Of a stretch of DNA of 64,000 bases, positions 794 to 39,115 are shown piece after piece. The stretch's first letter is position 1. Each line of letters begins with the position of its first letter. The notes beneath the pieces are model-generated. The model was given only the letters and a program-made list of their open reading frames with translations, had not been told where the DNA came from and did not search any database. Position numbers and translations under genes: made by a program. Source of the DNA: Clostridiaceae bacterium (lineage in GTDB: Bacteria > Bacillota > Clostridia > CAYPLH01 > DUMO01); the NCBI GenBank assembly GCA_012839865.1, contig DUMO01000063.1:62001-126000 (forward strand), in the 5' to 3' direction.

Positions 794-1113
794 AATAAAA
801 AACCCTTTCGCCTCACATAAAATGGGACGAAAGGGTAACTTTTCGCGGTACCACCCAAATTATTGCTTGAAAATGCAAACGCACAGGTTTTATTCTGTAT
901 CAGAAAGCCTGAACATTAATTTTAAGCAATCACTTGACAAATATAACGGTTTTAACCGGCGTTCCTTACTTATATTTCAGTTGGCAACTCACGGATGATT
1001 TTCAAAAACCTGCTTTGCAGAATTTCCACCATGCATCTGCTCTCTCTAAAAGCCGGGGTTTTTTACTCCTTCCGGTCATTGTTTTTATCTTATTACTGTC
1101 ATTGGCAATTTTA
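794..1113 (-). promoter_or_regulatory. T-box leader of ileS with terminator/antiterminator
   Basis: The hallmark T-box 14-mer, TGGGTGGTACCGCG on the minus strand, is at 844-857. It is followed by a terminator hairpin with perfect 9-bp arms ACCCTTTCG and CGAAAGGGT (802-810 with 828-836) and a T-run at 794-801. Known T-boxes read tRNA charging through a specifier codon in Stem I. The adjacent ATC triplets at about 994-999 are candidate isoleucine specifiers, but I could not fold Stem I rigorously. The leader covers the long gap between divIVA and ileS. The plus-strand ORF at 934-1161 inside it is spurious. Confidence 0.93.
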
Positions 1114-30548: not shown

Positions 30549-30762
30549 GCAGATGAAATTTATGCAGGACTATAACAAATGGCTTTATTTTGTTAGAAAA
30601 CCAAGTGAGCTGAAGGCAAAAATGCGTGAAAAAAACAGGATGTTTTTTTAGCTTTTTCGAGCCACGGAGGGCGAGTAAAAAGCGGTAGCATTTTTGCCTT
30701 CAGCGAACCGCTGGTTTTCTCAAAATAAAAGCCTTGTTGCATCCTGCATAAATTTCATCTGC
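30549..30762. repeat. Long inverted repeat element, copy 1 (214 bp)
   Basis: Perfect 21-bp terminal inverted repeats (30549-30569 and 30742-30762, starting GCAGATGAAATTTATGC). They are followed inwards by further pairing blocks: AGAAAACCA/TGGTTTTC, and a perfect 17-bp GCTGAAGGCAAAAATGC (30609-30625) with its complement (30688-30704). At the apex are two small hairpins: AAAAAAACA-GGA-TGTTTTTTT, and GCTTTTT/AAAAAGC around GAGCCACGGAGGGCGAG. There is no ORF. Two more copies occur at 44574-44781 and 50006-50220. No clear target-site duplication is seen. Confidence 0.85.
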
Positions 30763-35072: not shown

Positions 35073-36992
35073 TCAAATTATCTTGCCGGGATTAATCATA
35101 TCGATTATTTTATTACAAATTGCTTCCGAATCCAGACCATATTTTTTCAATAACTCGCCCTTGGACCCATGTTCGATAAATTTATCGGGGAAACCTAAAA
35201 TTTTTGTATTAACTTTGACTGAAGCTTCTGTAACAGTTTTCAATACTAAACTTCCCAGGCCTCCTATGACCGTATTGTCTTCCAAAGTTACCAAGTTCCC
35301 GGTTTTGCTTATGGATTCCAAAATTGCATTCTTATCGACAGGCTTGATAAACCTCAAGTTGATAATATCGGCCGATATTCCCTTTTCACCCAGCATTTTC
35401 CCTGCCAATAGAGCTGTCTCAACCATATCTCCCGCAGCAACCAAGGTTACATCCTTACCCTTTTGAATAACTGAAGCCTTTCCAAATTCAATTTCATTAA
35501 ACAAGGTTAATATTTCTCTTCCCTGCCCTTTGGGATACCTTATGGCAATAGGCCCTTTATATTCGAGAACTGCAAATTCAAGCATTTTCCTGAATTCAGT
35601 ATAGTCGCAGGGAGCAAGAACTGCCATATTGGGAATATGGCTCAAAAAAGATATGTCGAAAATTCCCTGATGGGTTTCGCCATCCTCTCCAACTACTCCA
35701 GCCCGGTCAATGGCAAATACAACATGCAGGTTTTGCAGCGCGACATCATGCAGAATCTGGTCATAGGAACGCTGCAAAAATGAAGAATAAATTGCAACAA
35801 CAGGAAGCATGCCTCCCCTGGCCAGTCCTGCCGCAAGGGTCACCGCATGCTGCTCGGCAATTCCCACATCAAAAAACCTGTTTCTGTAGGTCTTTGAAAA
35901 TTCACCAAGTCCTGTCCCGTGCCTCATGGCTGCAGTTATAGCTACGAGGTTCGGCTTTTTTTCCGCAAGTTTTATAAGTTCCTTTCCGAAAACGCTTGAG
36001 TAATCCGAGCCGTTTGGTTTCAAAACTTCACCTGTTTCCACTTCAAAGGGGGATACTCCATGAAAAACGTCCGGGTTTGTTTCAGCCGGTATGTAACCTT
36101 TTCCCTTCTTGGTCACTACATGAACCAGCACAGGGCCCTTCTGGGCTTTGGCTTTGGACAGGACACCGTTCAGTTCTGCTATATTGTGGCCATCAATGGG
36201 TCCTAAGTATTTAAATCCCAGTTCCTCAAAAATAATTCCGGGCATAATGAGGTATTTTATAGTCCCTTTAACCCTGTTAAGGGCTTTGACTGCCTTTTTC
36301 CCTACAGCAGGGATTTTACTTAAGATAACGTCAATATCCCCTTTAACATTATAATAAAAAGGCGCGATACGTATTTTGCTTAAATACCTTGACAGCCCTC
36401 CCACATTTCTTGAAATAGACATGTCATTGTCATTCAGTATCACTATCAGATTATTGGGTGACCGTCCTGCATCATTCAGGGCTTCAAAAGCCATGCCGCC
36501 CGTCATGGCTCCATCACCGATAACTGCTATCACATTGTATTTTTCGCCTTTTAAATCCCTTGCCCGGGCAAATCCAAGGGCTGCTGAAATTGAGGTGCTG
36601 CTGTGACCTGTGTTAAAGCAGTCATATACACTTTCATTTGTTTTAGGAAAACCGGATAAACCTCCAAGTTTCCTTAAAGAATGAAACCTGTCCCGCCTTC
36701 CGGTAATAAGCTTGTGTATATATGTTTGATGCCCCACATCCCAAACAATTTTATCAACTGGAGTATTGAACGTATAATGAAGGGCCAAAGTCAGTTCAAC
36801 CACTCCGAGGTTGGCTGAAAGATGCCCGCCTGTTCTGGATATATTGTTTACAAGGTATTCCCTTATCTCTTTTGCCAGTTCATTAAGCTGTTCAATTGAA
36901 AGCTCTCTTAAATCAGCCGGGGAATTTATCCTGCTTAGTAAACCGTTAGATTCTATTTTTAATCCCTCTTTCGATTTTTTATATTTCTTCAT
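35073..36992 (-). CDS. dxs: 1-deoxy-D-xylulose-5-phosphate synthase
   Basis: 639 residues. Condenses pyruvate and glyceraldehyde 3-phosphate, the first step of the MEP isoprenoid path, using thiamine diphosphate. The TPP motif begins IGDGAMTGGMAFEALNDAG (about residue 160) and includes NDNDMSI. The transketolase pyrimidine domain has EQHAVTLAAGLA and the C-terminal domain ends normally. It overlaps oapA by 4 bp and is in the same operon as ispA, so isoprenoid start and chain-building enzymes are coexpressed. Confidence 0.97.
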   Translation of the reverse strand: MKKYKKSKEGLKIESNGLLSRINSPADLRELSIEQLNELAKEIREYLVNNISRTGGHLSANLGVVELTLALHYTFNTPVDKIVWDVGHQTYIHKLITGRRDRFHSLRKLGGLSGFPKTNESVYDCFNTGHSSTSISAALGFARARDLKGEKYNVIAVIGDGAMTGGMAFEALNDAGRSPNNLIVILNDNDMSISRNVGGLSRYLSKIRIAPFYYNVKGDIDVILSKIPAVGKKAVKALNRVKGTIKYLIMPGIIFEELGFKYLGPIDGHNIAELNGVLSKAKAQKGPVLVHVVTKKGKGYIPAETNPDVFHGVSPFEVETGEVLKPNGSDYSSVFGKELIKLAEKKPNLVAITAAMRHGTGLGEFSKTYRNRFFDVGIAEQHAVTLAAGLARGGMLPVVAIYSSFLQRSYDQILHDVALQNLHVVFAIDRAGVVGEDGETHQGIFDISFLSHIPNMAVLAPCDYTEFRKMLEFAVLEYKGPIAIRYPKGQGREILTLFNEIEFGKASVIQKGKDVTLVAAGDMVETALLAGKMLGEKGISADIINLRFIKPVDKNAILESISKTGNLVTLEDNTVIGGLGSLVLKTVTEASVKVNTKILGFPDKFIEHGSKGELLKKYGLDSEAICNKIIDMINPGKII

Positions 36993-37609
36993 TTCTTCCT
37001 CGATGTTTCAGAATTTATTCTTCCAATAAAAAAACTTAATATTATGCTTACTCTGTAAACCAGTGTATTGCTTTTTTTCAATGCAAGTGTTTTTCCAATG
37101 GCTTTGCCTCCAATTGTCGCAGAAGCAATAAAACCTGTAACCAAAAAGCCAAAATATGGAGTCAAGCCCCAGGTCGTTTCACGGGACATGGCAACCACTA
37201 TCAGCGCTCCCATTGACCCGCTTAAAACACCGCAAATGTCACCAACAACGTCATTGCAAATGCTTGATACTTTGTTGGCATTACGTATTAAAAAAATTGC
37301 CTGCTTTGCTCCCGGCATTTTTCTTGATGCCATTGCATGAAAGGGTGTTTCATCCGCTGCTGCAACAGCAAGCCCCACCATATCAAAAAAAATACCAATT
37401 ACTATTATAATAAAAAGTATTAAAAATGCCACTGCAAGATGTACATTGGAAAGCAATCTGGATGATATTACGGAAATAGTTGCAGAGATCAGGAAGCCTA
37501 GAATTGATACCCGGATAACCCATGTATCCCGCTTATTCTTTTTTGAAGAACCATTCTTTTTATACTTTAATTTTCTTCCACGAAATTTAAATTCATCATT
37601 TTCAGCCAT
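36989..37609 (-). CDS. oapA: OLE-RNA-associated membrane protein OapA-like
   Basis: 206 residues. A basic N-terminus (KFRGRKLKYKKNGSSKKNKR) is followed by four hydrophobic segments (about 33-50, 55-82, 123-145 and 150-175). It resembles the DUF21 membrane domain of CNNM/CorC magnesium proteins: GGKAIGKTLALKKSN replaces their G-E-x-x-P-K-x-x-A motif. OapA proteins form a membrane complex with OLE RNA and are always encoded beside it. This gene lies directly after the RNA-like 1-kb gap and overlaps dxs, exactly the published OLE context. Name assignment is by context and membrane pattern. Confidence 0.82.
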   Translation of the reverse strand: MAENDEFKFRGRKLKYKKNGSSKKNKRDTWVIRVSILGFLISATISVISSRLLSNVHLAVAFLILFIIIVIGIFFDMVGLAVAAADETPFHAMASRKMPGAKQAIFLIRNANKVSSICNDVVGDICGVLSGSMGALIVVAMSRETTWGLTPYFGFLVTGFIASATIGGKAIGKTLALKKSNTLVYRVSIILSFFIGRINSETSRKK

Positions 37610-37769
37610 TATTTTTCTCCCGGATTTTCTCCAAGCTGTGTGAAAATTGCTAATGCTGTATGTATATCAAACAAAGCAGATATTTCTATAAAACACTCTC
37701 CATATATTTAATATGGCATAATTATCACTGTGATATTTAAAACTCTGTAATATTTTATATATATTAACA

Positions 37770-38360
37770 GGTGGCTGCATACTGAGTAAATTTTGCGGCT
37801 TAGGTCAGGCAGGATTTCCCTTGAAAGTGCTGAATTGTCGCCGTTTTCAGCGGTTCCCCTTTAAACTTTCAACAGCCATGTTGCCATAAGCTGAGCCTGA
37901 TCACCACTTAGTCCACACTGCAATCCCCAGTACACAATAACAGTCTAGGGGTTTTCCCCGACAGTCCTGCTGTTTCCTAGCCTCTTTTGCAGAATTGGTT
38001 TCAAACAGCAATAATAAATATGCTTTGGCCATTGCAAATTTATCCGATCCATTATCCACCATATCCACTCAAGGCAGGCTACTCTGTTCACAGCATCATT
38101 ACCGCAAAACAGGTTTAATCCCTTATCATAAGTTGTCGCACAGTGAAAAAAACACTGCCTTATACCCACAAGTAAGGGTCTCCACGGTAAAGGGGTCAAC
38201 GCCTGCATGCCATTGCAGATCGCCCCTAAACCTTAACTCCCAGCATCAACCCACCACTGGGCGTGGCAAGCCGACACAAGGAACTTCATCGATGTGCCCT
38301 TAACGGATTTTTAGGCCCGTTTTCAAAAACAGCAGTTCCGACTAGAATACTGCGCCACCC
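37770..38360 (-). ncRNA. OLE RNA (ornate, large, extremophilic), about 590 nt
   Basis: A 1.07-kb non-coding gap between a PAP2-family gene and the OapA-like gene, inside the nusB-ispA-dxs operon, is where OLE RNAs are known to lie. The core is closed by a long-range pairing: GGTGGCGCA (minus-strand 38359-38351) with TGC-A-GCCACC (37779-37770). Inside are clear hairpins, e.g. TTGAAAGT/ACTTTCAA (37821-37828 with 37865-37872) enclosing CCG-CGG, AACGG/CCGTT near 38300, and CGGGGAAAACCCC near 37955. The core length of about 590 nt agrees with the family. ORFs in it lack ribosome sites and family resemblance. Exact ends are not certain. Confidence 0.85.
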
Positions 38361-38398
38361 TCGAATTTGCTTCAATATTGTAATTGTAACAAAAAGCA

Positions 38399-38470
38399 GG
38401 TTGAGCTAACTTTATATGCATCTCATACCGGCGAAAAGTTTTTGCACAATACTTGATGCGAAGCTCAACC
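38399..38470 (-). terminator. 72-bp hairpin upstream of the OLE core
   Basis: On the minus strand GGTTGAGCT and AGCTCAACC form perfect 9-bp arms, with an inner GCATC/GATGC pair, and TGCTTTTTG follows. It could end transcripts from the PAP2 gene or be the first stem of the OLE transcript. No convincing promoter for OLE alone is seen. A lone TATAAT is at 38544-38549 with a poor -35. Confidence 0.5.
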
Positions 38471-38677
38471 AATATGTTATTTGGGTGTCAATCACATATT
38501 AATTTAAATCTCCAAAGTCGTGCCATGGAGTTGACGATATGGAATTATAACATAAAATAAAGAATCTTAAAAGAACAACTAAAGCGTTTATTCTGTTTAT
38601 ATTGGCTTTCTATGAGTTTTAACCAGCAATATCAATGTTAAGCTTATTCTATATATCTTATGTTTACTTATGCTTGC

Positions 38678-39115
38678 TCATCCTAGCAAGAGTCCGATGG
38701 CAATTCCCATCAAAGCGCCTACTATCACCTGAAAAGGTGTATGTCCCAAAAGTTCCTTCAGTTTTTCATCCATATGCAGAAAATCATTGGAATAGATTAT
38801 TTTATTCAAAATCTCAGCTTGTTTTCCAGCGGCCCTTCTTACACCTGCAGCATCCTGCATTACAACCAGCGCAAAGGCTGTAGCAATTCCAAACTCAATG
38901 GACCCAAAACCCAGATTTTTTCCTACCACTGTAGCAACACAGACTACATAGGATGCATGGGCGGAAGGCATGCCGCCTGTCCCGACAAATCTTGTAAAAT
39001 CCAATTTTTTCTCTGTAAGCAATACTGTAAGTACTTTGATAAACTGAGCAATAAACCATGTTAATGCCGGTACAACAATTGCCTTGTTGGAAAAAATGCT
39101 TTCAATAAACTCCAA
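38678..39115 (-). CDS. Divergent PAP2-family (DUF212) membrane protein
   Basis: 145 residues with three or four membrane segments and the family signature FVGTGGMPSAHASYVVC (about residues 43-60), followed by VVMQDAAGVRRAAGKQA and a C-terminal LGHTPFQVIVGALMGI. These are relatives of acid phosphatase PAP2 and may act on a lipid or polyprenyl phosphate. Lying 30 bp after ispA, a link to polyprenyl metabolism is plausible. No activity is established for the family. Confidence 0.88.
   Translation of the reverse strand: MEFIESIFSNKAIVVPALTWFIAQFIKVLTVLLTEKKLDFTRFVGTGGMPSAHASYVVCVATVVGKNLGFGSIEFGIATAFALVVMQDAAGVRRAAGKQAEILNKIIYSNDFLHMDEKLKELLGHTPFQVIVGALMGIAIGLLLG

Follow-up and report, generated by a model that had tools for sequence, protein, structure and literature searches.

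A full-length OLE RNA gene beside oapA in the isoprenoid gene cluster of a Clostridiaceae bacterium

Introduction

OLE is a large, membrane-associated bacterial RNA. Genes for two proteins that go with it, OapB and OapC, are common but not universal among the bacteria that carry OLE. A third protein, OapA, is weakly related to the CNNM/DUF21 domain, and a single MpfA-like protein is expected in the genomes of OLE carriers (PMC11332333). Cryo-EM work on this RNA assigns RNA–RNA dimer contacts to the A-rich loop of P4 and to the GGCC of the P9 loop (PMC12286853, PMC12265935). At the site where ribosomal protein bS21 touches the Halalkalibacterium halodurans RNA, an anti-Shine-Dalgarno mimic has been reported (PMC12054373), the sequence of which is taken here from a primer. 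In this study, we analyze a 64,000-nucleotide stretch of a Clostridiaceae bacterium contig (hereafter, the window) and describe the sequence, structure and neighbourhood of its OLE locus, together with the partner genes present in the genome.

Results

A reading of the DNA made from its letters alone (the sequence-only reading) had proposed an OLE RNA/OapA locus in a non-coding gap of about 1 kb, between a PAP2-family gene and a gene for a DUF21-like membrane protein upstream of dxs. Open reading frame and protein family searches bore out both flanks and set the gap at exactly 37610-38677 (1068 bases), the order along the minus strand being ispA, divergent PAP2, the gap, a CNNM-like protein and dxs (Table 1). 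The wider cluster includes nusB, xseA and xseB and extends to tlyA, nadK, argR, recN and a SpoIVB-type peptidase gene. Two open reading frames inside the gap (87 and 102 codons) had no protein family match and are chance frames, and a sub-threshold Rfam scan across the gap returned no family other than OLE.

Table 1. Positions of the OLE locus, its neighbours and partner genes found elsewhere in the genome. Coordinates are those of the window unless preceded by a locus name.
Feature	Position	Strand	Basis or remark
OLE RNA gene, full length	37755-38374	-	RF01071 model 1-616 of 616; alignment with 18 relatives
Closing helix P1, 5' arm, GGUGGC	38354-38359	-	pairs with 37770-37775
Closing helix P1, 3' arm, GCCACC	37770-37775	-	pairs with 38354-38359
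Hairpin upstream of OLE, then U-rich stretch	38399-38470	-	nine-pair outer stem, 38399-38407 with 38462-38470
Possible -10 box TACAAT, no clear -35	38377-38382	-	5-of-6 match to TATAAT
oapA, 206-aa membrane protein, OLE partner	36989-37609	-	topology, weak CNNM match, OLE upstream in relatives
Divergent PAP2 family gene, upstream neighbour of OLE	38678-39115	-	PF02681 (DUF212), E = 4e-47
dxs, downstream of oapA, 4-base overlap with oapA	35073-36992	-	TIGR00204, 811 bits
OapB, 98-aa ORF between map and infA	L114:7483-7779		PDB 7k9b, E = 2e-11
OapC/YbxF, L7Ae-type protein between rpoC and rpsL	L082:1492-1734		matches B. subtilis YbxF structures

Two other RNA matches lie in the window. A T-box leader (134 bits; 820-1088, minus strand) is found downstream of a DivIVA-like gene, and the gene that it regulates would sit beyond the start of the window. 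The TwoAYGGAY RNA has a marginal Rfam match (45.6 bits against a cut-off of 43; 30578-30735, plus strand) that lies between recN and the SpoIVB-type peptidase gene, which are 594 bases apart and both on the other strand.

The sequence-only reading had named a covariance search as the check on its proposal. When the window was scanned with all Rfam families, RF01071 gave a strong minus-strand match of 524 bits, where the gathering score is 50 (E = 7.7e-151). The OLE RNA is 620 nt long, compared with about 600 nt expected, and occupies 620 of the 1068 bases; OLE does lie in the gap, as proposed, and is smaller than the gap as a whole. An RF01071 search found this to be the single copy in the genome. 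Across 60 genomes, the one with the window and 59 others from the same class, OLE was found in 27, and 14 well-known control genomes gave no OLE match. Scores among the relatives ranged from 430 to 551 bits, a range that includes the score found here, and 139 of the 155 Rfam pairs are standard in the window sequence. The copy is thus full-length and apparently intact. A decayed remnant that no longer works, for which the genome's one MpfA-like protein could stand in, is very improbable given the complete model coverage, a score typical of relatives, the preserved pairing and an intact oapA.

To examine the fold, we aligned 19 OLE sequences (the window and 18 relatives) and counted pairs per column. 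The full model of 161 pairs, made up of the Rfam pairs and a closing helix, had 88.1% of its cells paired, compared with 41-44% when it was slid by 1-3 columns, and changes on both sides occurred at 103 pairs. These values place the OLE structure far beyond chance, and they give substance to the earlier description of the gap as full of hairpins. The six pairs of the closing helix were formed in 98.2% of cells, with both-side changes at four of the six. By its position, this helix is P1 of published OLE models, in which P1 is placed in domain 2 (PMC12265935). The consensus structure of RF01071 omits P1 and draws the ends of the model unpaired; adding the covarying P1 would correct the Rfam OLE model in a small, practical way.

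The long-range pairing first drawn between 38351-38359 and 37770-37779 was longer than this. Its six-pair core was retained, and its three further pairs, which join 38351-38353 to 37777-37779 past a bulge, were not: they had no both-side changes in the 19 sequences, and two of them were unpaired in 9 and 7 of the 19.

The A-rich P4 loop and the P9-loop GGCC do not vary among the 19 sequences and, as these letters make the dimer contacts, the window's OLE would be expected to dimerise. Strong conservation was also seen in the P4a/P5/P6 region, which would form the OapC-bound kink turn of OLE. At the bS21 site, the perfect anti-Shine-Dalgarno mimic of the H. halodurans P6 stem is absent: the window has ACCCCUUUACC where H. 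halodurans has ACCCUCCUAC, and GACCCCUUUACC at the position of GACCCUCCUAC. The mimic is not family-defining, and since it is imperfect here, the bS21 contact of the window's OLE may differ from that of H. halodurans.

The protein encoded by the CNNM-like gene has four hydrophobic segments by hydropathy (residues 31-49, 56-74, 121-139 and 153-171), and its match to CNNM (PF01595; E 7e-5, 23 bits) falls below the curated cut-off of 28.4 bits, in line with the weak CNNM relation described for OapA. Used as the sole query of genomes, this protein returned 80 loci. In 18 of the 19 OapA loci that were scanned with Rfam, full-length OLE lies directly upstream. The protein's identity as OapA is supported by its position, its topology and the OLE genes upstream of these relatives. 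Collectively with the RF01071 match, these data uphold the proposed OLE RNA/OapA locus: the gap almost certainly holds an OLE RNA gene that adjoins the partner gene oapA, within the isoprenoid, exonuclease VII and sporulation cluster usual for the pair.

A strict OLE core motif, GCAGTAT[TC]CTAGT, marked 85 fetched loci as carrying OLE, about twenty of which had been fetched by OLE itself; oapA was found in 85 of 85 and dxs in 79 of 85. Fourteen oapA loci did not contain the strict motif. Most of these have no more than a few hundred bases of sequence in front of oapA, and one, L041, has OLE at the contig end. At L065 (Clostridiaceae bacterium strain 9, 1-1693), two unrelated ORFs precede oapA and OLE is missing from that place; the genome has its full-length OLE on a different contig (L117). 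In this genome, the two genes appear to lie apart, or the assembly has produced the effect.

A rival reading takes OLE to be a long leader, acting in cis on oapA and dxs rather than as a separate RNA. OLE lies directly upstream of oapA, a terminator looked for between the two was not found, and in H. halodurans the cluster is transcribed as a single polycistronic RNA (PMC12265935). Against a leader stand the L065 genome, where OLE and oapA are on different contigs, and published work that describes a membrane complex in which OLE acts as an RNA of its own (PMC12265935, PMC9723947). We give the leader explanation next to no weight.

The 303 bases of the gap that lie upstream of OLE contain a hairpin and a -10-like box (Table 1). 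The segment 38375-38500 folds better than its shuffles (z = -3.6), and the hairpin possibly ends an upstream transcript. A search of the 303 bases in their own genome gave no convincing repeat, and comparison with the upstream regions of relatives gave just chance-length matches of 10-14 bases. As it has no relative in either place, the hairpin does not count as a conserved RNA.

Within 59 bases upstream of OLE, TATAAT occurs in 24 of 57 dereplicated sequences from relatives, compared with 9.0 ± 2.7 in shuffles (maximum 15 in 300), suggesting that OLE has its own promoter in many lineages. For the window itself, placing such a promoter at TACAAT would be a guess. Strong hairpins resembling intrinsic terminators stand just upstream of OLE in several relatives (L018, L033, L044, L060, L062, L070 and L094), which agrees with OLE being transcribed independently in those genomes. 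We think it unlikely, if conceivable, that the window's OLE is transcribed from a promoter of its own, with the hairpin as a structured element in front that insulates OLE or controls it conditionally. If so, the level of OLE would be set independently of the isoprenoid operon.

We also looked for other partner genes in the genome. OapB escaped a search by KOW domain alone and was found through its place between map and infA; its match, PDB 7k9b, is the solved structure of OLE-associated protein B. OapC/YbxF and a bS21 gene are present as well, as is one MpfA-like protein (L084), separate from OapA. This set agrees with published surveys.

Discussion

The window's OLE is an ordinary member of a well-described family, a result of low surprise and high certainty. 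It adds one more well-supported OLE/OapA locus, from an isolated lineage, and the biochemical role of OLE is no easier to test through this copy alone.

We infer the expression, membrane location and stress function of this RNA from published work on H. halodurans and Clostridium OLE RNA. By that analogy, an RNA of about 600 nt would fold and dimerise through its conserved loops, OapA would hold it at the membrane, OapB and OapC would assist it, and bS21 would touch it. With this complex the cell may tolerate cold, alcohol, high magnesium and poor carbon sources, the likeliest route being control of divalent-metal handling by the CNNM-like OapA.

Of the known systems, MpfA/CorC proteins share the CNNM transmembrane domain with OapA; unlike them, OapA does not have the length to hold CBS and CorC_HlyC domains and matches neither. 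Compared with the OapA family, it has no notable difference: it has about 200 residues, four hydrophobic segments, lysine/arginine-rich ends and an adjoining OLE, with 51-55% identity to the nearest relatives fetched. The RNA differs from H. halodurans OLE in its imperfect anti-Shine-Dalgarno mimic, and from the RF01071 full-length type in carrying a short insertion within a single hairpin, which by model position falls in the P7/P8 region. With that full-length type it shares coverage of the whole model, the conserved loops, the closing helix, oapA directly downstream, the dxs/ispA/xse neighbours, and a genome with genes for OapB and OapC.
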